From positions 1 to 64,000 of the forward strand of contig NZ_VULY01000018.1 of assembly GCF_009696485.1 (NCBI RefSeq): DNA of 64,000 nucleotides, given 5' to 3'. Made by a program: the position numbers and the translations under genes. Every line of letters starts with the position of its first letter. The stretch's first letter is position 1. Source of the stretch: Suipraeoptans intestinalis (GTDB taxonomy: Bacteria; Bacillota; Clostridia; Lachnospirales; Lachnospiraceae). The notes under the pieces are model-generated. The model did not search any database. It was not told the DNA's origin and saw only the letters and a list, made by a program, of their open reading frames with translations. Of this stretch, positions 36,041-47,483 are shown piece after piece.

Positions 36041-36109
36041 ATGGCGGTGAAAACGGTTGGAAAAAGAGAAAGAAAACTTCTGGAAAAGGAAGATGAGGAT
36101 AGAACGTAA
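36041..36109 (+). CDS. possible 22-codon upstream reading frame of mreB
   Basis: ATG 36041 begins a short Lys/Glu-rich frame (MAVKTVGKRERK...) whose TAA overlaps the mreB ATG as TAATG. The ribosome site (GAGGGA) is too close for efficient use, so this may be chance. If translated it would couple into mreB. Confidence 0.25.
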   Translation: MAVKTVGKRERKLLEKEDEDRT

Positions 36110-37131
36110 TGGCCAGAAACACCTATGGACTGGATTTAGGATCCTATGAAATAAAAGTATATGACAAACAGAAAGATACCATCTGGAAAGAAAAAAATGT
36201 TCTTGCAAGAAGAAACGGGCAGGAGATCTTTGCGGTGGGAGAAGAAGCCTATCATATGCAGGGAAAGGTTCCCGGAGATATCGAGATCACTTTTCCCATG
36301 AAAGGAGGCGTGATTTCCCGGTTCAACGATATGCAGAACCTTCTGAAGCATCTTCTGAAAAAAGACCGGCAGCTGGTAAGAGGATCCCAGTATGTGATCG
36401 CCGTTCCCACTGACGTGACAGAGGTGGAAAAAAAGGCTTTTTTTGATCTGGTCATCCATTCAACGGCAAGGGCAAGGGAAGTTAATATCGTGGAGCGCGC
36501 CATTGCGGATGCAGTGGGACTGAATCTGGATGTGGCCAATACCAAAGGCGTTATGATCGTAAATTTCGGGGCGGAGACGACGGAGATATCCGTTCTGGCA
36601 GGCGGCGGGATGGTTCTGAACCGCCTCCTGAAGATCGGGGGAGCCACCTACGACCATGCGGTCATCAGCCTGATCCGGCACAGCCATGACTTTCTGGTGG
36701 GGCGGCTGACGGCGGAAAAACTCCGGAAAAGCTTTGGGATTTTTACCGATGAGGCGGACAGAGTGATCCCGGTAGCCGGAAGAGATCTGATCACGGGAGT
36801 TCCCACGCAGAAATCCATCTCCATCCAGATTGTCCGTGCAGCCATGAAGGATGCTCTGTTCCAGTGTGTCAAAGAGATCACTTCTTTGATCGACCGGACC
36901 CCTCCGGAAGTAAGAAAGGCCATCAGGGACAATGGTATTTTCCTGACAGGCGGACTGTCCCATGTGCAGGGGTTTGAGACCTATATAGAAGAGATGGTAG
37001 GGATCAAGACCCGCACGGCGCTGGATCCGGATATCTGTGCCGTCAACGGACTGAAAAAGATCATTGTATCGAAGGAACTGAGAGAACTTGCATATTCTAT
37101 GTTAGATGAAAATTATAGGTGGATGAGATAA
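36109..37131 (+). CDS. mreB: rod shape-determining protein MreB, 340 aa
   Basis: Actin-like filament protein organising lateral wall synthesis. Motifs: phosphate-1 YGLDLGSYEIKVYD, VAVPTDVTEVEKKAF-like segment (VIAVPTDVTEVEKKAFFD), phosphate-2 VNFGAETTEISVLAGG, the TAEKLRKSFG helix and the adenosine motif LTGGLSHVQGF. Length matches MreB. It heads an operon with mreC, mreD, mrdA, a minD-like gene and rodA, so the whole elongasome is encoded together. Confidence 0.95.
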   Translation: MARNTYGLDLGSYEIKVYDKQKDTIWKEKNVLARRNGQEIFAVGEEAYHMQGKVPGDIEITFPMKGGVISRFNDMQNLLKHLLKKDRQLVRGSQYVIAVPTDVTEVEKKAFFDLVIHSTARAREVNIVERAIADAVGLNLDVANTKGVMIVNFGAETTEISVLAGGGMVLNRLLKIGGATYDHAVISLIRHSHDFLVGRLTAEKLRKSFGIFTDEADRVIPVAGRDLITGVPTQKSISIQIVRAAMKDALFQCVKEITSLIDRTPPEVRKAIRDNGIFLTGGLSHVQGFETYIEEMVGIKTRTALDPDICAVNGLKKIIVSKELRELAYSMLDENYRWMR

Positions 37132-37132
37132 G

Positions 37133-38014
37133 ATGAAGACCAGAAGACATTCTTCCCTTCCAAGTAAATACTGGATGATCCTGGTGGCGTTTTGCTGTGT
37201 GATCCTGCTTGTGATAGAAGCCTTCACAGGCGGGAAAGGCCCCCTTCGCTTCGTGGCCAACTATACGGTGATCCCCATGCAGAAGGGGATCAGCTTTGTG
37301 GGCGGCTTTATGAGCGACGTATCGGACAATTTCCAGACACTGAAGGAAATGAAAAAGGAAAATGAGGCGCTGCAGTCCAAGGTGGACAAGCTGACAATAG
37401 ACAACACCTATCTGCGGCAGGAGCAATACGAACTGGAACGGCTCAGGCAGTTATACCAGCTGGATGAAAATTATTCCGATTATAAAAAAACGGGAGCCCA
37501 TGTGATCGCCAACAACGGAAGCAACTGGTTTAACGACTTCACCATTGATAAAGGGACCAACGACGGAGTGCAGGTAAATTCCAATGTTTTGGCAGGAAGC
37601 GGACTGGCGGGTATCGTGACGGAGGTAGGACCGGATTATGCCAGAGTACGCTCTGTGATCGATGACGCCAGCAATATCAGCGCCATGATCTTGTCTACGT
37701 CAGATCTTTGTGTGGTAAGAGGAGATCTGAAGCTGATGGCGGACGGCAGGATCCGGTTTGAAAAGCTTCCCAACAATGACCATCCGGTCGAGGTGGGAGA
37801 GCAGGTGGTGACCTCTCATGTGAGCAATCGCTTTCTGCAGGGACTGTTCATCGGATATATCAGTGAGATCAAAGTGGACGCCAACAATCTGACCAGATCC
37901 GGGTACATTACGCCCGCCGTGGATTTCAGCCGTCTGCAGGAGGTTCTGGTGATCACTTCCACCAAACAGGATCTGCTGAAGGACAGTGAGAAAGAAAAGG
38001 AGGCGGGAAATTGA
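37133..38014 (+). CDS. mreC: rod shape-determining protein MreC, 293 aa
   Basis: Bitopic protein linking MreB to extracellular synthases. One TM helix (MILVALCCVILLVIEAFTG-like, residues 13-30), a coiled coil (TLKEMKKENEALQSKVDKLTIDN) and the two-barrel extracellular domain (GTNDGVQVNSNVLAGSGLAGIVTEVGPDYARVRSVIDD, GEQVVTSHVSNRFLQGLFIGYI) are typical. ATG 37133 is one base after the mreB stop; the 3' end overlaps mreD by four bases. Confidence 0.95.
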   Translation: MKTRRHSSLPSKYWMILVAFCCVILLVIEAFTGGKGPLRFVANYTVIPMQKGISFVGGFMSDVSDNFQTLKEMKKENEALQSKVDKLTIDNTYLRQEQYELERLRQLYQLDENYSDYKKTGAHVIANNGSNWFNDFTIDKGTNDGVQVNSNVLAGSGLAGIVTEVGPDYARVRSVIDDASNISAMILSTSDLCVVRGDLKLMADGRIRFEKLPNNDHPVEVGEQVVTSHVSNRFLQGLFIGYISEIKVDANNLTRSGYITPAVDFSRLQEVLVITSTKQDLLKDSEKEKEAGN

Positions 38015-38529
38015 AACGGAAAGGGATTATCTTGGGTCTGATCGTTCTTGCCTTCCTTCTGGAAAGCACACTGTTTTCCCATCTTTCCTTTGCAGGGATC
38101 AAGCCAAATCTTCTGATTATCCTGACGTCTTCTTTCGGGTTTATGCGGGGAAAGAAAGAAGGCCTTTGGGTGGGGCTGGTCTGCGGAGTGTTTGTAGATG
38201 TGCTGTGGGGCGGCATGCTGGGGTTACAGATGCTGATCTTTTCTGTGATCGGGTATGGCAACGGAATGTTCCGCCGCCTTTTTTACGACGACGATATCAA
38301 ATTACCCCTTGTTTTGATAGGAGCCAGCGAGCTGCTTTATGGGTTCGCAAATTATGTCGGCTTTCATCTGCTCAAGGGTGATTTTGCATTTTATAACTAT
38401 TTCAGCCACATTATCCTGCCGGAGCTGATCTATACCGTTTTGGTCACACTGGCAGTCTACCAGGTGGTCCTGAAGATCAACAAAAAGCTGGAAGCAGAAG
38501 AGCAAAGGAGTGCAAGCAGATTTGTATAA
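38011..38529 (+). CDS. mreD: rod shape-determining protein MreD, 172 aa
   Basis: Hydrophobic protein with about six TM helices; opening GIILGLIVLAFLLESTLFSH and the IKPNLLIILTSSFGFMRGKKEGLWVGLVCGVFVD segment are typical of MreD. The start is TTG 38011, overlapping the mreC stop (TTGA), a coupled arrangement. GGAGG at 37999-38003 serves as ribosome site. Confidence 0.92.
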   Translation: MKRKGIILGLIVLAFLLESTLFSHLSFAGIKPNLLIILTSSFGFMRGKKEGLWVGLVCGVFVDVLWGGMLGLQMLIFSVIGYGNGMFRRLFYDDDIKLPLVLIGASELLYGFANYVGFHLLKGDFAFYNYFSHIILPELIYTVLVTLAVYQVVLKINKKLEAEEQRSASRFV

Positions 38530-41458
38530 TTTATGGGAACGGATCAAGTCCGGCATATTTGAATTGGTACAGTCAAGGGTCTTTGTGGTAGTCCTTTTAT
38601 TTTGCGTCATGTCAGGGATCCTGGTGCAGCGGGTGTTTTATCTGCAGATCGTAAAAGGGCAGGAGTATTTTGACGATTACAAACTTCAGATCCAGAAGAC
38701 GAGAAGCGTAGAAGGAACCAGAGGAAATATTTACGACAGGAACGGAAAGCTTCTGGCCTACAATGAGCTAGCCTACGCCGTCATGATAGAGGACAACGGA
38801 GATTATGAGAGTCTGACCCAGAAAAACAAGGAGATCAACAAGGTGGTTACCAAAGTGATCCGGATGGTGGAGGGTAACGGCGACTCTGTGATCAACAATT
38901 TCGGGATCATCCTGGATTCCAATCAGGAATATCGGTTCATGGAAAAAAATGAAACGGCACGGATGCGTTTTATTGCGGATGTTTATGGAAAAAGGACGAT
39001 CGATCAGCTGTCCGAAAAGCAGCAAAATGCCTCGGCGAAGGATGTAATCGACTATCTTTGCACGGATAAGATCAGCGGCTATGGCATCGACCAAAAGAAG
39101 CTGTCTCCTGCAGAGGTATTGAAGCTGGTCAACATTCGGTATGCCATTTCTCTGAACAGCTACCAGAAATATATCGCCACCACCATCGCCGATGATGTCA
39201 GTGATGAGACGGTAGCAGACATTATGGAAAATCTGGACAGCCTGCAGGGGGTCAGCATAGAGGAAGAGTCTCTGCGGCGTTATACAGACAGTGTCTGCTT
39301 TGCCAACGTGATCGGCTACACCGGACAGATTTCTACCGAAGAGTATGATGCGTTAAGCAAGGAAGAGCAGGAGGCCTACGACAAGACGGATACCATCGGG
39401 AAAGCGGGGATCGAAAAGACGATGGACAGTGTGCTTCAGGGTGAAAAGGGAGAAGAGAAGCTTTATGTCAACAGTGTGGGAAAGGTGATCGAAACGGCAA
39501 AAGGCAAGAATCCGAAGGCCGGAAACAACCTTTACCTTACGATAGATGCAGACCTGCAAAAAGTCGCCTATCACGTGATAGAGCAGGAACTGGCGGGGAT
39601 CCTTATTTCCAAGATCAAAAACATAGCGGATTATGACAGGGAAACGGTGCAGGAAGGAAATGACGTGATCATTCCCATCACAGATGTATACCATACGCTG
39701 GTCAACAACGACATCCTGGATATGAAGCATTTTTCGGCGGAAGATGCCAGGGAAGGCGAAAAAGAAATAGAGGCAGTCTTTCTGGAAAGAAAAGAGGCGG
39801 TGAAAGAAAGCCTGAAAAAGTCTCTGCAGGATCCGCAGGCCCCGGCGCTGACCAATCTGGGGAAGGAAGAGCAGGCATATATGAATTATCTGGTGAACCA
39901 TGTGCTGAGCTCTTCTCTGATGAAAAACCGGATAGATAAGGGAGATGCGGGATACAAAAACTGGAAAAAGGACGGAAGCATCAATGCGTACACCTTTCTC
40001 CAGCACGCCCTGTCACAGAACTGGATCGATACCTCTCTTTTGCGGGAGTATGTAAAAGGAGGGCACACCTATTCCAGCTCGGAAGAGCTGTACAACGCCA
40101 TGATCGAATACGGACTGGATCAGCTGTCTTCCGATTCTGAGTTTGACAAGATCCTGTACAAGTATCTGATCGTTGGCGGTTCTGTTACAGGCAGGCAGCT
40201 TTGTATGGCTCTGTTTGAACAGGGGATCCTGCAGGAGGATGCGGGATCTTACGAAGGACTGAAGGCCGGAAGCGTGGATGCGTACAGCTTTATCATGAGC
40301 AAGATCGAGAACCTGGAACTGACGCCGGGACAGCTGGCGCTGGAGCCCTGCACCGGTTCCATGGTGGTAACGGACCCCGGATCCGGACAGGTGCTGGCCA
40401 GTGTATCCTATCCGGGATACGACAACAACCGGCTGGTCAATACGATGGATTCCAACTATTACAACAAGCTGGTAATGGACAAATCCCGTCCGTTCTACAA
40501 CAACGCCACGCAGGAGCGCACGGCGCCGGGATCGGTATATAAGCCGCTGACTGCTGTGGCGGGACTGACGGAAGGGATCATTGATCTGAATACCTACGTA
40601 AACTGTACCGGAAGCTTTGACCGGGTGGAGCCAAGTCCCAAGTGCTGGATCTATCCAGGAGCCCACGGACCACTGAATGTGGAAGGCGCCATCGCCCATT
40701 CCTGCAACATTTTTTTCTATGAACTGGGCTATCAGATGAGCCTGCAGAAAGCAGACGGGACTGCATCCGGTCAGACAGGAGGAAACCGGACGACAGACGG
40801 AGCCAGTTCTTTTTCCAGTCGGAAAGGGACAGACATCCTGAAAAAATATGCGGAAGAATTTGGCCTGGGAAGTACCAGCGGAATAGAGATACCGGAATCA
40901 GAACCTCAGATTTCAGACGAATACTCCATTCTTTCTGCCATCGGCCAAGGAACCAACAATTACACCACCAGCCAGCTGGCCAGATATATGGCGACGATGG
41001 CAAATAAAGGGAACCTGTACGACCTGACTCTGCTGCAGAAGGAGACGTCCTCTAAAGGAGAGCTGATCAAAGAATATCAGCCGAAGGTGAAGAAACAGGC
41101 GACCAACGTGGCAGATACTACATGGAATGCAGTGCAAAGCGGAATGCGTCAGGTAGTGACCAGTACTTATGCCACGACCTTCTCTAAAATCAATGGCAGC
41201 GGAGTGTCTGTATCAGGAAAAACGGGAACGGCACAGCAGAGCAGAACACATGCAGACCATTCTCTGTTTGCAGGCTACGCCCCCAGCGACGATCCCAAGA
41301 TCGCCTTTTCCATCCGGATCGCCAACGGATATGGCTCTACCCATGCGGTGGAAATTGGGAAATATGTGCTGGAGTATTACTACCAGCTGACGGATCCTTC
41401 GGAGATCCTGACGGGAAAGGCTTTCAATGTAAGCAGCGACATTATCGTAACAGATTAA
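38522..41458 (+). CDS. mrdA: penicillin-binding protein 2 (elongation transpeptidase), unusually large, 978 aa
   Basis: Class B PBP crosslinking lateral wall peptidoglycan. One TM helix at residues 20-40, the dimerisation-domain start GTRGNIYDRNGKLLAYNE, and the transpeptidase motifs SVYK (Ser671 by my count), SCN (727-729) and KTG (900-902). Most PBP2 proteins are 600-750 residues; the extra length lies before the catalytic domain, in a long helical, Glu/Lys-rich region roughly between residues 340 and 600. AAAGGAG at 38504-38510 favours TTG 38522 over GTG 38510, which overlaps it. It forms the elongation pair with RodA, encoded two genes on. Confidence 0.93.
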   Translation: MYNLWERIKSGIFELVQSRVFVVVLLFCVMSGILVQRVFYLQIVKGQEYFDDYKLQIQKTRSVEGTRGNIYDRNGKLLAYNELAYAVMIEDNGDYESLTQKNKEINKVVTKVIRMVEGNGDSVINNFGIILDSNQEYRFMEKNETARMRFIADVYGKRTIDQLSEKQQNASAKDVIDYLCTDKISGYGIDQKKLSPAEVLKLVNIRYAISLNSYQKYIATTIADDVSDETVADIMENLDSLQGVSIEEESLRRYTDSVCFANVIGYTGQISTEEYDALSKEEQEAYDKTDTIGKAGIEKTMDSVLQGEKGEEKLYVNSVGKVIETAKGKNPKAGNNLYLTIDADLQKVAYHVIEQELAGILISKIKNIADYDRETVQEGNDVIIPITDVYHTLVNNDILDMKHFSAEDAREGEKEIEAVFLERKEAVKESLKKSLQDPQAPALTNLGKEEQAYMNYLVNHVLSSSLMKNRIDKGDAGYKNWKKDGSINAYTFLQHALSQNWIDTSLLREYVKGGHTYSSSEELYNAMIEYGLDQLSSDSEFDKILYKYLIVGGSVTGRQLCMALFEQGILQEDAGSYEGLKAGSVDAYSFIMSKIENLELTPGQLALEPCTGSMVVTDPGSGQVLASVSYPGYDNNRLVNTMDSNYYNKLVMDKSRPFYNNATQERTAPGSVYKPLTAVAGLTEGIIDLNTYVNCTGSFDRVEPSPKCWIYPGAHGPLNVEGAIAHSCNIFFYELGYQMSLQKADGTASGQTGGNRTTDGASSFSSRKGTDILKKYAEEFGLGSTSGIEIPESEPQISDEYSILSAIGQGTNNYTTSQLARYMATMANKGNLYDLTLLQKETSSKGELIKEYQPKVKKQATNVADTTWNAVQSGMRQVVTSTYATTFSKINGSGVSVSGKTGTAQQSRTHADHSLFAGYAPSDDPKIAFSIRIANGYGSTHAVEIGKYVLEYYYQLTDPSEILTGKAFNVSSDIIVTD

Positions 41459-41468
41459 GGAGAAGGAT

Positions 41469-42287
41469 ATGGGAAAGACAGTGGCAGTGTTGTCCGGAAA
41501 AGGCGGAACAGGGAAGACGTTTGTAACCGCAATGCTTTCCCGGGCTCTGGCGGAAGAGGGAAAAACAGTCCTGTGTATCGATATGGATTTTGGCCTCCGG
41601 GGACTGGAGATGGCGCTGGGAATTACGACGCCCATCCTGCATCACGTGCTGGATGTATGCGAAGGAAAAACAGACATTCGGGAGGCGGCGCTGCCCCACC
41701 CGAACTGTCCAAAGCTGAAGCTTTTGGCAGCTCCTCAGACAAAAACATGGAAGGATCTGGAGGAAAAGAAGCTGGAAGTACTGCTAAAAGACATGGAAGA
41801 AGCATATGACTGGATTTTTCTGGACGGCCCTGCCGGAATTGGAAAGGGCGCTGAACTCTGTGCCAGATCCTGCAGAGAAGTACTGCTGGTCAGCCTGTTG
41901 GAACCGCTCTCCTTGAGGGCGGCGGATAAAATGAGTGCAGCCTGTGCCGGATGGGGGCGAAGAGAGCAGAGCATGATCCTGAATCAGATTCCTTCGAGAA
42001 TGCCGAAAGGATATGAAGAGGGAGAATGGAAGGACCTGGTTTCCCCTGAGATTGTAGGGTTTCTTCCGCAGGAGGACAAGATCCGGGAGCAGTTCCAAAA
42101 AGGAGACGGTCTGTGGGAGATAGAAACAAAATCCCTTGCCCTTTGTAAAACTATCGGAGAATATCTGGCGGAGCCCTATGGAGAAAGAAAGCTGGGCAGG
42201 ATCCCAAGGCCGGATGTAAAGGAGAAAAAACGTGAGAATTCATTTATCCAGAAGATTTACGAAGCCTTATCAAATAAAAAATTATAG
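41469..42287 (+). CDS. minD: MinD-like ParA-family ATPase, 272 aa
   Basis: Deviant-Walker-A ATPase: VLSGKGGTGKTFVTAML with the signature lysine, DMDFGLRGLEMALG (MinD: D.DIGLRNLD..LG) and FLDGPAGIGKG (MinD: DSPAGIE.G). The C-terminus ends in a short possible amphipathic helix (NSFIQKIYEALSNKKL) resembling the MinD membrane anchor. MinD normally partners MinC and MinE, whose genes flank it in related genomes, but neither is present here: mrdA ends 10 bases before and rodA starts within its last 56 bases. So it could be a divergent MinD with other partners. Confidence 0.82.
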   Translation: MGKTVAVLSGKGGTGKTFVTAMLSRALAEEGKTVLCIDMDFGLRGLEMALGITTPILHHVLDVCEGKTDIREAALPHPNCPKLKLLAAPQTKTWKDLEEKKLEVLLKDMEEAYDWIFLDGPAGIGKGAELCARSCREVLLVSLLEPLSLRAADKMSAACAGWGRREQSMILNQIPSRMPKGYEEGEWKDLVSPEIVGFLPQEDKIREQFQKGDGLWEIETKSLALCKTIGEYLAEPYGERKLGRIPRPDVKEKKRENSFIQKIYEALSNKKL

Positions 42288-43365
42288 ATTCAGTCTGGTG
42301 ATCCTGGTGATCCTCCTTTCTGTGATCGGCGTTTTGGTGGTGGGAAGTGCAAGAGCTTCCTTCCAGAACAAGCAGCTGGTAGGTATGATCCTGGGGATCC
42401 TTGTCATGCTGGTGGTCTCCCTGGTGGACTATGAGTGGGTACTGAATTTTTACTGGCTTCTCTACGGGACTGTGATCGTGATGCTGGGAGCCGTTCTGGT
42501 CATCGGTGAAAATGTAAATGGAGCAACCCGGTGGATCAACCTGGGATTTACCACCTTTCAGCCGTCGGAACTTTCCAAGATCCTTTTGATCCTGTTTTTT
42601 GCCAAATTTATCATGGAACACGAGGAAGATATCAGTGGTAGATTTACTCTGATCAAATACGCTCTGTTATGCGGAGTGCCCTTGGCTTTGATCGTGGTGG
42701 AGCCGAATCTGTCCACTACCATCTGTACAGCTCTTACGCTGTGTCTGATGATCTATGTGGGAGGACTTCATTACAGATTCATCGGAACTGTCCTGCTGAT
42801 ACTGATCCCGCTGACCATTATTTTTCTGAGCATTGTGGTGCAGCCCAACCAGAAGATCCTGAAGCCTTATCAACAGAAGCGGATTTTAGCCTTTATTGAA
42901 CCGGAGAAATACGCCAGTGACGAGGCCTATCAGCAAAAAAATTCTGTTATGGCCATCGGATCCGGACAGCTTTCCGGCAAGGGACTGGACAACAATACGA
43001 CGACTTCGGTAAAAAACGGAAATTTCATATCGGAACCTCAGACGGACTTTATTTTTGCGATCGTGGGGGAGGAACTGGGATTTATAGGCAGCTGTATAGT
43101 TATTGCGTTACTCTTATTAATTGTGATACAATGCATGTTAGTGGGAATGCGTGCAAAAGACATGGCGGGCAGGATCATCTGCTGCGGGGTAGGAGGCCTG
43201 ATTGGGATACAAAGCTTCATCAACATTGGCGTTGCCACGAAGCTTTTGCCCAATACGGGCGTACCGCTTCCTTTTGTAAGCTACGGGCTTACTTCTCTTG
43301 TAAGTTTATATATCGGCATCGGGTTTGTTCTGAATGTCGGATTACAGCCCCAAAAATATCAGTAA
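42232..43365 (+). CDS. rodA: RodA/SEDS peptidoglycan polymerase, 377 aa
   Basis: SEDS glycosyltransferase with about ten TM helices. Family motifs: NGATRWINLGFTTFQPSELSKI, VVEPNLSTT, GSGQLSGKGL, EPQTDFIFAIVGEELGFIG and the C-terminal LPNTGVPLPFVSYGLTSLVSLYIGIG. It supplies glycan strands that the PBP2 crosslinks. GTG 42232 is well spaced after AAAGGAG (42218-42224) and overlaps the minD-like gene by 56 bases. Confidence 0.94.
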   Translation: MRIHLSRRFTKPYQIKNYRFSLVILVILLSVIGVLVVGSARASFQNKQLVGMILGILVMLVVSLVDYEWVLNFYWLLYGTVIVMLGAVLVIGENVNGATRWINLGFTTFQPSELSKILLILFFAKFIMEHEEDISGRFTLIKYALLCGVPLALIVVEPNLSTTICTALTLCLMIYVGGLHYRFIGTVLLILIPLTIIFLSIVVQPNQKILKPYQQKRILAFIEPEKYASDEAYQQKNSVMAIGSGQLSGKGLDNNTTTSVKNGNFISEPQTDFIFAIVGEELGFIGSCIVIALLLLIVIQCMLVGMRAKDMAGRIICCGVGGLIGIQSFINIGVATKLLPNTGVPLPFVSYGLTSLVSLYIGIGFVLNVGLQPQKYQ

Positions 43366-43380
43366 GAGGAGATAAAAGAG

Positions 43381-43776
43381 ATGAACATCGGTTTAATTGC
43401 TCACGATTCCAAGAAAACGTTGATGCAGAATTTTTGCATTGCGTACAGAGGGATCCTAAATAAACATAGTCTTTATGCAACAGGAACTACAGGACGACTG
43501 ATCGAGGAAGTGACCAATCTCAGCATCCACAAGTATCTGGCAGGTCCTTTGGGCGGAAAGCAGCAGCTGGGCGCCCAGATTGCGCAGAATGACATCGACG
43601 CACTGATCTTCCTGCGGGAGCCGGCCAACCCAAAGCCACATGATCCGGATGTGAATGATGTGATCCGGCTTTGTGACACCTACAATATTCCCATGGCGAC
43701 AAACCTGGCTACAGCAGAACTGATTATTTTAGCGATTGACAGAGGAGATTTGGACTGGCGTGAAATGTACAAATAA
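43381..43776 (+). CDS. mgsA: methylglyoxal synthase family protein with altered active site, 131 aa
   Basis: Converts dihydroxyacetone phosphate to methylglyoxal in active homologues. Family motifs are clear: GLIAHDSKKT, YATGTTGRLIEE, LAGPLGGKQQLGAQI, PHDPDVNDVIRLCD, NIPMATNLATAELI. The catalytic base of E. coli MgsA is Asp71 in GGDQQVG; here the codon at 43558-43560 is AAG, giving Lys60, and the Asp91 equivalent is Glu (REP instead of WDP). Other conserved His and Asp (HD near residue 8, PHDPD) remain. It may be inactive or have another activity. Located behind rodA as in other Lachnospiraceae. Confidence 0.88.
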   Translation: MNIGLIAHDSKKTLMQNFCIAYRGILNKHSLYATGTTGRLIEEVTNLSIHKYLAGPLGGKQQLGAQIAQNDIDALIFLREPANPKPHDPDVNDVIRLCDTYNIPMATNLATAELIILAIDRGDLDWREMYK

Positions 43777-44731
43777 AACGGGAGTGTTCCTTGTGCTGGC
43801 ATTTGTTGTCCTGCTGGGAAGCGGATGCAGATTTTCAGGATTTCAGAGTGTAGTAGAGCATTATGAGACAAAGGAATACGAAAAGCGTGCATATGTAAAT
43901 AGTCTGTACAGCGACGATTTGTGCGTGGTGCCCAAGGAAGAGAAAAAGCAGCAGGACTGGGGGCTGAGTGGGGCGGATTCTTCCGCTCTTTTCAATGAAG
44001 GGACGAAAGAGACCCTCTACGCTTTCCAGGTTTACAAACAACTCTATCCGGCCAGTGTTACCAAGATACTGACGGCTCTTGTAGCGTTGGAGCATGGTAA
44101 TCTTCAGGATACGGTTACCGTATCCCGAAACGGGGCGGCGTCCAGCTTTCCTTCCTATGCGCAGGTCTGTGGACTGCAGGAGGGAGACAGATTGTCACTG
44201 GAAGCCCTCCTTTGCGGGCTTTTGCTTCATTCCGGGAATGACAGTGCAGTAGCCGTTGCAGAGCATATCGGCGGTACGGAAGAGAAATTCGTGGATATGA
44301 TGAACCAGAAAGCGGCAGAGCTTCTGGCAACGGATACGCATTTTACAAATCCCAGCGGACTGCATGACGATGAGCACTACACAACAGCGTATGACCTGTA
44401 TCTGATCTTTCACGCATGCATCCGGCAGGAGGCGTTTGTGAACATCATCCAGATGCCTATGTATACTGCATCCATTACCGGGAGAGATGGGAGTGTTCGT
44501 CAGGTATCCTGGGAACCGACCAATTACTATGCCAGAGGTCTGGTCGCATCCCCACAGACGGCTGTCATTGCAGGAGGAAAGACCGGCACTACGGACGAGG
44601 CGGGCAACTGCCTGATCCTGTTGGAGTATGCAAACGACGGGACACCTTACGTTTCTGTTGTTATGGGGGCAAAGACAAAGGAGCTTTTGTATCAGGATAT
44701 GTCGGCTCTGATAGAACAGATTTCCCCTTAA
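43760..44731 (+). CDS. D-alanyl-D-alanine carboxypeptidase lipoprotein, 323 aa
   Basis: Penicillin-binding carboxypeptidase (peptidase S11) trimming pentapeptide stems. Motifs: SVTK (SxxK) near residue 98, SGN in LLHSGNDSAVA, and KTG in AGGKTGTTDEAG. The N-terminus GVFLVLAFVVLLGSGC is a signal with lipobox, so the protein is probably lipid-anchored. Start GTG 43760 overlaps mgsA by 17 bases, with AGAGGAG about 13 bases upstream. Part of the wall-growth operon by position. Confidence 0.9.
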   Translation: MKCTNKTGVFLVLAFVVLLGSGCRFSGFQSVVEHYETKEYEKRAYVNSLYSDDLCVVPKEEKKQQDWGLSGADSSALFNEGTKETLYAFQVYKQLYPASVTKILTALVALEHGNLQDTVTVSRNGAASSFPSYAQVCGLQEGDRLSLEALLCGLLLHSGNDSAVAVAEHIGGTEEKFVDMMNQKAAELLATDTHFTNPSGLHDDEHYTTAYDLYLIFHACIRQEAFVNIIQMPMYTASITGRDGSVRQVSWEPTNYYARGLVASPQTAVIAGGKTGTTDEAGNCLILLEYANDGTPYVSVVMGAKTKELLYQDMSALIEQISP

Positions 44732-46952: not shown

Positions 46953-47483
46953 ATGGGAGTATTGGATAAGCTTTTAAACATTATGAAACTGGACGATGGG
47001 GATGACTATGAAGATCCCTTTAACGAAGTAGATGATGACGAAGGATATGAGGAGAAGCCAAAGACGAATCTTTTCAGCAAGCTGAGAGGACGGGAAGAGG
47101 CGGAAGAGGAGATAGAAGACGTGCCTGCCAGAACTTCCAGGACAACGGGAAGCAAGGTGACGGCGATGCGTCCGTCCTCCAGAAGACCGGCGGCTATGGA
47201 GGTCTGTGTAATGAAGCCCAATTCTGTGGACGATGCCAGAGAGATTACAGAGACACTGCTTTCCGGACGGACAGTGATCCTGAATCTGGAAGGACTGGAT
47301 CTGGAAGTGGCTCAGAGAATCATTGATTTTACTTCCGGCGCTACTTTTGCCATCAGCGGGAATCTTCAGAAGGTGTCCAGCTACATCTTCCTGGTGACGC
47401 CTACCAATGTGGACATCTCCGGGGACCTGCAGGATCTTCTGAATACTTCTTTTGATGCGTCTTCCATGCGTTCCAGGTTTTAG
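46953..47483 (+). CDS. sepF: cell division protein SepF, 176 aa
   Basis: FtsZ-bundling protein at the septum. The N-terminal membrane-targeting amphipathic helix (MGVLDKLLNIMKL), an acidic linker and the C-terminal SepF domain (KPNSVDDAREITETLLSGRTVILNLEG, RIIDFTSGATFAISGNLQKVSSYIFLVTP) are present. In Firmicutes it normally links FtsZ to the membrane. Close to yggS and ylmH as in B. subtilis. Confidence 0.96.
   Translation: MGVLDKLLNIMKLDDGDDYEDPFNEVDDDEGYEEKPKTNLFSKLRGREEAEEEIEDVPARTSRTTGSKVTAMRPSSRRPAAMEVCVMKPNSVDDAREITETLLSGRTVILNLEGLDLEVAQRIIDFTSGATFAISGNLQKVSSYIFLVTPTNVDISGDLQDLLNTSFDASSMRSRF

Follow-up and report, generated by a model that had tools for sequence, protein, structure and literature searches.

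An MgsA-like protein without the catalytic aspartate is encoded downstream of rodA in Lachnospiraceae

The window analysed here, a stretch of 64,000 nucleotides from Suipraeoptans intestinalis, encodes directly after rodA an MgsA-like protein in which lysine occupies the position of the catalytic aspartate. The original prediction of an Asp-less MgsA at this place is right, and the phenomenon is broader than first noted, extending through Lachnospiraceae and into other families of its order. Judging from the residue change, normal methylglyoxal synthase activity has likely been lost, and we give about even chances to the reading that this is an MgsA freed from catalysis and retained in the elongation operon for a ligand-binding and probably regulatory role.

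Results

The window protein and its active site

The translation of the mgsA-like open reading frame (Table 1), whose start codon lies 15 nt past the stop codon of rodA (43363-43365), includes LAGPLGGKQQLGAQ. The best solved relative of this protein in a phmmer comparison was B. subtilis MgsA (6f2c, E 1.5e-43), and the gap-free alignment of the two places K60 opposite the B. subtilis aspartate. It also aligns FLREP of the window protein with FLRDP of 6f2c, and the residue at the position of E. coli Asp91 is therefore a glutamate, Glu80; both substitutions had been called beforehand and are borne out. According to a study of the C. difficile 630 enzyme (PMC7843640), which shares its numbering with the window protein, D60 is the catalytic base and the pocket consists of H8, K12, TGTTG 34-38, S54, G55 and H87, with Ser54 contacting the phosphate. 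All of the residues given there are kept in the window protein except D60 and S54, the latter being replaced by Ala. The earlier claim that the other motifs are intact thus stands for the TGTTG, Lys12 and Gly55 of the phosphate pocket and fails at residue 54, where the phosphate-contact Ser is expected. His87 and Asp90, which correspond to E. coli His98 and Asp101, are both present.

The protein scores 164.2 bits against TIGR00160 (cut-off 146.9), also exceeds the cut-off of NF003559 and matches Pfam PF02142, and the NCBIfam equivalog models accordingly name it methylglyoxal synthase; in a scan of 38 Asp-less proteins, among them that of the window, these models hit every one (the cut-offs refer to the window protein only). 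An AlphaFold2 monomer model, built with 38 sequences from the window and the named genomes described below, has the MGS fold (pLDDT 84, pTM 0.81), its least confident part being the active-site loop of residues 54-58 (pLDDT <50). Foldseek returned MgsA structures first (2xw6, 6f2c, 1wo8 and 1b93, with query TM scores of 0.85 to 2xw6_B and 0.81-0.83 to 6f2c) and then MGS domains of carbamoyl-phosphate synthetase.

Table 1. Coordinates of the mgsA-like gene, its diagnostic codons and its neighbours in the window.
Feature	Position	Strand	Basis
mreB	36109..37131	+	PF06723
mreC	37133..38014	+	PF04085
mreD	38011..38529	+	PF04093
Class B penicillin-binding protein (PBP2 type)	38510..41458	+	PF00905, PF03717
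MinD/ParA-type ATPase	41469..42287	+	TIGR01968 131.6 bits, below cut-off 212.9; Pfam AAA_31, CbiA
rodA (SEDS glycosyltransferase)	42232..43365	+	PF01098, E 1e-82
GAGGAG, probable ribosome-binding site	43366..43371	+	read from sequence
MgsA-fold protein without catalytic Asp	43381..43776	+	ORF, 131 aa; TIGR00160, NF003559, PF02142, Foldseek 2xw6/6f2c
Codon GCA, Ala54	43540..43542	+	position of phosphate-contact Ser
Codon AAG, Lys60	43558..43560	+	catalytic Asp position (E. coli Asp71, C. difficile D60)
Codon GAG, Glu80	43618..43620	+	E. coli Asp91 position
D-alanyl-D-alanine carboxypeptidase (S11), start codon uncertain	43736..44731	+	PF00768; overlaps mgsA-like 3' end
sepF	46953..47483	+	PF04472; downstream of mgsA-like gene

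Residue 60 in Lachnospiraceae and Lachnospirales

Asp60 was absent from each of 59 Lachnospiraceae genomes read by similarity (among the matches listed, those ranking highest by likeness to the Lys60 query, the window's own included), in which residue 60 of the rodA-linked copy was Glu in 25, Lys in 13, Met, Gln, Ala and Thr in 4 each, Ser in 3, and Gly and Asn in 1 each. It was likewise absent from all 80 named-genome loci, the best 80 of more, which were retrieved with peptide patterns that leave out site 60 and may share species with the former set; here we counted Lys 24, Glu 22, Ala 9, Ser 8, Thr 7, Met 4, Gln 3, and Ile, Val and Gly once each. Fourteen more rodA-linked Lachnospiraceae copies, kept outside the main count, also have no Asp, but add little, their genomes having been picked for a missing GGDQQ motif. 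Beyond the family, 36 loci were read in 18 other families of Lachnospirales, and 35 of them lacked Asp60 (Glu 26, Gln 4, Leu 3, Ala 1, Ile 1, Asp 1). The gene followed rodA in 59/59, 79/80 and 36/36 loci of the three sets, respectively, and the noted placement after rodA thus holds across the loci read in the family and its order. Asp-bearing, rodA-linked exceptions within Lachnospiraceae came from a GGD motif search (L224 and L225, in genomes G070 and G250); both combine Asp60 with Ala54 and are perhaps returns to Asp by drift. L178 is another rodA-linked exception that bears Asp.

The recurrence of Lys in 13 of the 59 genomes and 24 of the 80 loci rules out a lone mutation or a sequencing error in the window. 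To single out lysine as the change was correct as far as it went, but understated the matter, since a dozen residues, Lys among them, occur at a site that varies freely across the order.

A conserved pocket around a variable position

Across 82 non-redundant Lachnospiraceae rows, H8, K12, T34, T36, T37, G38, G55, G58, G59 and N108 were invariant and G35 was kept in 73, while site 60, at 2.54 bits, was the second most variable of the 131 positions. When rates were estimated on a fixed tree, site 60 fell into the fastest class, at rank 7/131 among 94 Lachnospiraceae rows and 9/131 among 130 rows of the order; in the latter it takes 12 residues and requires at least 38 changes. Its rank of 116/131 among 32 Asp-bearing operon rows follows from the construction of that set: the selection of both Asp-bearing reference sets (26 and 32 rows) required Asp60 and Ser54, which makes invariance there a matter of design. 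The gene as a whole is maintained, as had been proposed, with a median dN/dS of about 0.07 over the 146 unsaturated of 1176 pairs, most of them at dS >1.5. For the 7 pairs at dS <1.5 the median is 0.10, and mean column identity across 38 sequences is 87 percent. The protein is therefore under strong purifying selection, and its catalytic position is relaxed but not fully free.

Strict selection for anything but Asp at site 60 was considered and rejected. Among the 130 order rows Asp occurs once and Arg never, and in codon simulations started from GAA (15 kappa/rate settings, 60 replicates each) the probability of at most one Asp ranged from 0 to 0.15; the absence of Arg was at least as improbable in 10 of the 15 settings, and the simulations do not support avoidance of Asp.

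Glu, a possible base, is the commonest residue at site 60 (67/130), which speaks for the alternative that the window-type protein is still a methylglyoxal synthase of lower or altered activity, with Glu60 (in many members) or Asp90/His87 acting as the base. His87 and Asp90 are mostly kept (77 and 71 of the 82 Lachnospiraceae rows), and the canonical GGDQQ motif was found in only about 103 of 299 Lachnospiraceae genomes, so that activity of the operon copy may be needed in the remainder. We nevertheless consider a surviving synthase unlikely. Ala, Gly, Thr, Ser, Met, Lys, Ile, Val and Leu, all poor substitutes for an Asp base, also occur at site 60; the Ser that contacts the phosphate has gone from most rows (74 Ala, 6 Pro and 2 Ser of 82); and no further acidic residue falls at this position when the window protein is aligned without gaps. 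Loss of activity in the Lys, Ala and Thr types is expected from the published role of Asp71/D60.

The same fold and phosphate ligand could also serve a different reaction independent of Asp60. The invariant pocket would suit such an enzyme, as would nine sites (Q16, N17, G24, E42, N46, K51, L57, I76 and E128) that are at least 95% fixed in Lachnospiraceae and not in the Asp-bearing operon copies. Our analysis did not, however, place these newly fixed residues at the active site, and free variation of residue 60 would be unusual for one; we rate a new chemistry as distinctly improbable.

Operon neighbourhood and the elongasome

On one strand the window carries mreB, mreC, mreD, the PBP2-type gene, the MinD/ParA-type ATPase gene, rodA, the mgsA-like gene, and genes for the carboxypeptidase, an HlyD-type protein, a YggS-type protein (Ala_racemase_N) and SepF. 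The carboxypeptidase frame, which has a TTG start and whose true start is unsure, shares up to 41 nt with the 3' end of the mgsA-like gene, and this overlap suggests that the two may be translationally coupled. The MinD-like ATPase is encoded by the sole + strand frame of at least 80 aa from the PBP2 gene to rodA; no minC or minE was seen among such frames in this interval, and the Min system of the operon is possibly altered.

The mgsA-like gene lies within the mre/rodA operon of the relatives as well. Co-occurrence with the elongasome proved of little value as a test, MreB being present in 116/116 and MreC in 111/116 genomes of the order. An MgsA-like match was absent from 12 Lachnospirales genomes at least 90% complete, of which 12/12 have MreB and 11/12 MreC (G302, G310, G312 and G317, for example, have MreC), and the window-type protein is thus not an obligatory part of the elongasome.

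Canonical and additional MgsA copies

The check proposed earlier, a search for a second canonical mgsA, was positive. On the minus strand of the same contig, near 232.7 kb, the window genome (2.6 Mb, 44 contigs) encodes a longer-type MgsA that carries GGDQQIG and PHDPD; it also has an MGS domain within a 1077-aa open frame. By motif search, GGDQQ occurs anywhere in 103/299 Lachnospiraceae genomes, leaving about two thirds without it, a count that is approximate because for two hits (G051, G210) the stretch that was fetched contained no MgsA match, the hits of G070 and G250 are the rodA-linked Asp copies, and some canonical copies are missed (L343 reads GGDLQ). By protein search, 16 of 18 named genomes had a second MgsA-like match, and all 12 second copies fetched from them (L302-L313) carry Asp, which is not by construction here. 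Second matches were found in 13 of 51 genomes with a non-Asp operon copy vs 0 of 26 with an Asp copy (Fisher P 0.003, not corrected for kinship), an excess that weakly fits a takeover of the chemistry by a separate canonical gene in some lineages.

These second copies are also what one would expect if the Asp-less protein were an inactive subunit that joins canonical MgsA in mixed oligomers and regulates it. Against such pairing, GGDQQ is present in only those 103 of 299 genomes, even if the motif overlooks some canonical copies; identity between the two copies in the window genome is 48 percent; and outside Lachnospirales second matches number 2/16 vs 0/26 (P 0.14). We regard the partner subunit as an improbable explanation.

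Among loci from other Lachnospiraceae genomes (L332-L342 and L344-L351), 11 hold a second, odd MgsA paralogue, mostly of GGDKQF type, with Asn after His8, no PHEPD motif and a location away from rodA. Among the neighbours scanned, recG homologues lie near it in five loci (L344, L345, L346, L349, L350), fakA in three (L344, L345, L349) and coaD-type genes in three (L344, L350, L351). This GGDKQF-type paralogue may be another decatalysed MgsA. A class-level genome, G480, has three MgsA-like copies (L246-L248), two with strongly altered active sites (Val60 and Met60).

Other clostridial families

At the level of the class we read 56 loci from 45 families, 44 of which lie downstream of rodA, minD or pbp2 homologues (same strand, at most 3.2 kb upstream of the mgsA-like gene). 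These operon-linked copies have Asp in 28 cases, among them L281, which is of the longer, E. coli-like type, and another residue in 16; an Asp-bearing MgsA therefore shares the operon in many clostridia. Families f74 and f87 each hold Asp and non-Asp copies. Loci L194-L223 were fetched by the GGD motif and have Asp by construction, L194 giving no MgsA match.

In a tree of 126 proteins, computed without the four active-site columns and leaving few columns and many open forks, the Lachnospirales operon copies form one clade with the unlinked paralogue L191 (SH-aLRT 98). At least 10 changes between Asp and non-Asp are required on this weakly resolved tree, which makes the number of losses rough but suggests that the catalytic Asp was lost several times among clostridia.

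Discussion

Decay of the gene, or its carriage as a passenger solely for the order of the operon, is barely credible: the catalytic residue is lost and 14 of 299 Lachnospiraceae genomes have no match, but the low dN/dS medians, the matches in the other 285 and the high column identity contradict it.

The reading that we prefer, a former MgsA retained as a ligand-binding protein, would have the following history. The ancestor would have been an active MgsA of clostridia, encoded even then inside the mre-min-rodA operon. The catalytic Asp would have been lost in the ancestor of Lachnospirales, with fold, phosphate pocket and operon place kept, and the same loss would apparently have been repeated in several other clostridial lineages. 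For the present window-type protein we infer absence of methylglyoxal synthesis, ligand binding, an oligomeric state and a regulatory target: it would most likely be a non-catalytic oligomer that binds phosphate or triose phosphate and informs the machinery of elongation or Min about the state of glycolysis, be it through RodA/PBP2, MinD or another partner. Three observations point this way. The variety of residues at the base position disfavours a single conserved mechanism of Asp type, invariance of the phosphate pocket favours binding of phosphate or triose phosphate, and the operon place favours a role with wall elongation or Min. The proposal of a role other than methylglyoxal production is upheld insofar as the residue change fits a loss of ordinary catalysis, and the pocket is compatible with its suggested form, DHAP sensing for wall growth. 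The more ambitious view, that a widespread clostridial pseudo-MgsA, arisen several times and independently out of the operon's own enzyme, serves in most Lachnospiraceae as a glycolytic (DHAP/phosphate) gauge for lengthening and Min positioning, we put forward only tentatively and think doubtful.

Lachnospiraceae are a dominant gut family, and the MgsA-like gene is found in nearly all of its genomes; if the protein were a sensor, it would provide a direct link between glycolysis and rod growth. Among the literature matches listed, mostly judged by titles and the starts of abstracts, there was no paper on Asp-less or rodA-linked MgsA, and mgsA does not occur in the main text of a C. difficile Tn-seq/CRISPRi paper (PMC12548448), as far as its available part goes.

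Since the NCBIfam models name Asp-less proteins methylglyoxal synthase, metabolic models and shunt proposals that count mgsA may include a non-enzyme. Papers on Butyrivibrio cite mgsA genes for a methylglyoxal shunt in strains without enolase (PMC5716241, PMC6912079, PMC7523725), one of them crediting B. hungatei with two (PMC5716241). The five Pseudobutyrivibrio and Butyrivibrio genomes that we searched each combine a rodA-linked copy bearing Thr60 with a second match, which is canonical in the four where it was fetched. In these genomes, probably, only one of the two mgsA genes should be counted, and the shunt would still be possible.

How, then, does the window protein compare with known systems? 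It resembles the MgsA of E. coli, B. subtilis (6f2c) and C. difficile 630 in fold, with a length and numbering near the clostridial type, and shares with them TGTTG, Lys12, His8, Gly55 and GG.QQ.G; in many families an Asp-bearing MgsA gene even occupies the same place in the operon. It is unlike them in that the catalytic Asp is replaced and the position variable, Ser54 has become Ala and, in the window copy, Glu stands at the Asp91 position. The MGS-like allosteric domains of carbamoyl-phosphate synthetase, the next-best structural matches, have the fold in common with it, and such a domain binds its ligand without methylglyoxal chemistry; they differ in being only 14-21 percent identical and part of a large enzyme rather than a separate small protein. 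B. subtilis UgtP and GlmR/YvcK are metabolic sensors of cell growth whose folds are unrelated to MGS; what they, and Crh-regulated MgsA, would share with the window protein is the concept of coupling wall growth or carbon flux to a protein that binds a metabolite. B. subtilis MgsA, finally, is reportedly regulated by Crh, according to a study of the two proteins, and is, unlike the window protein, an Asp-bearing enzyme.
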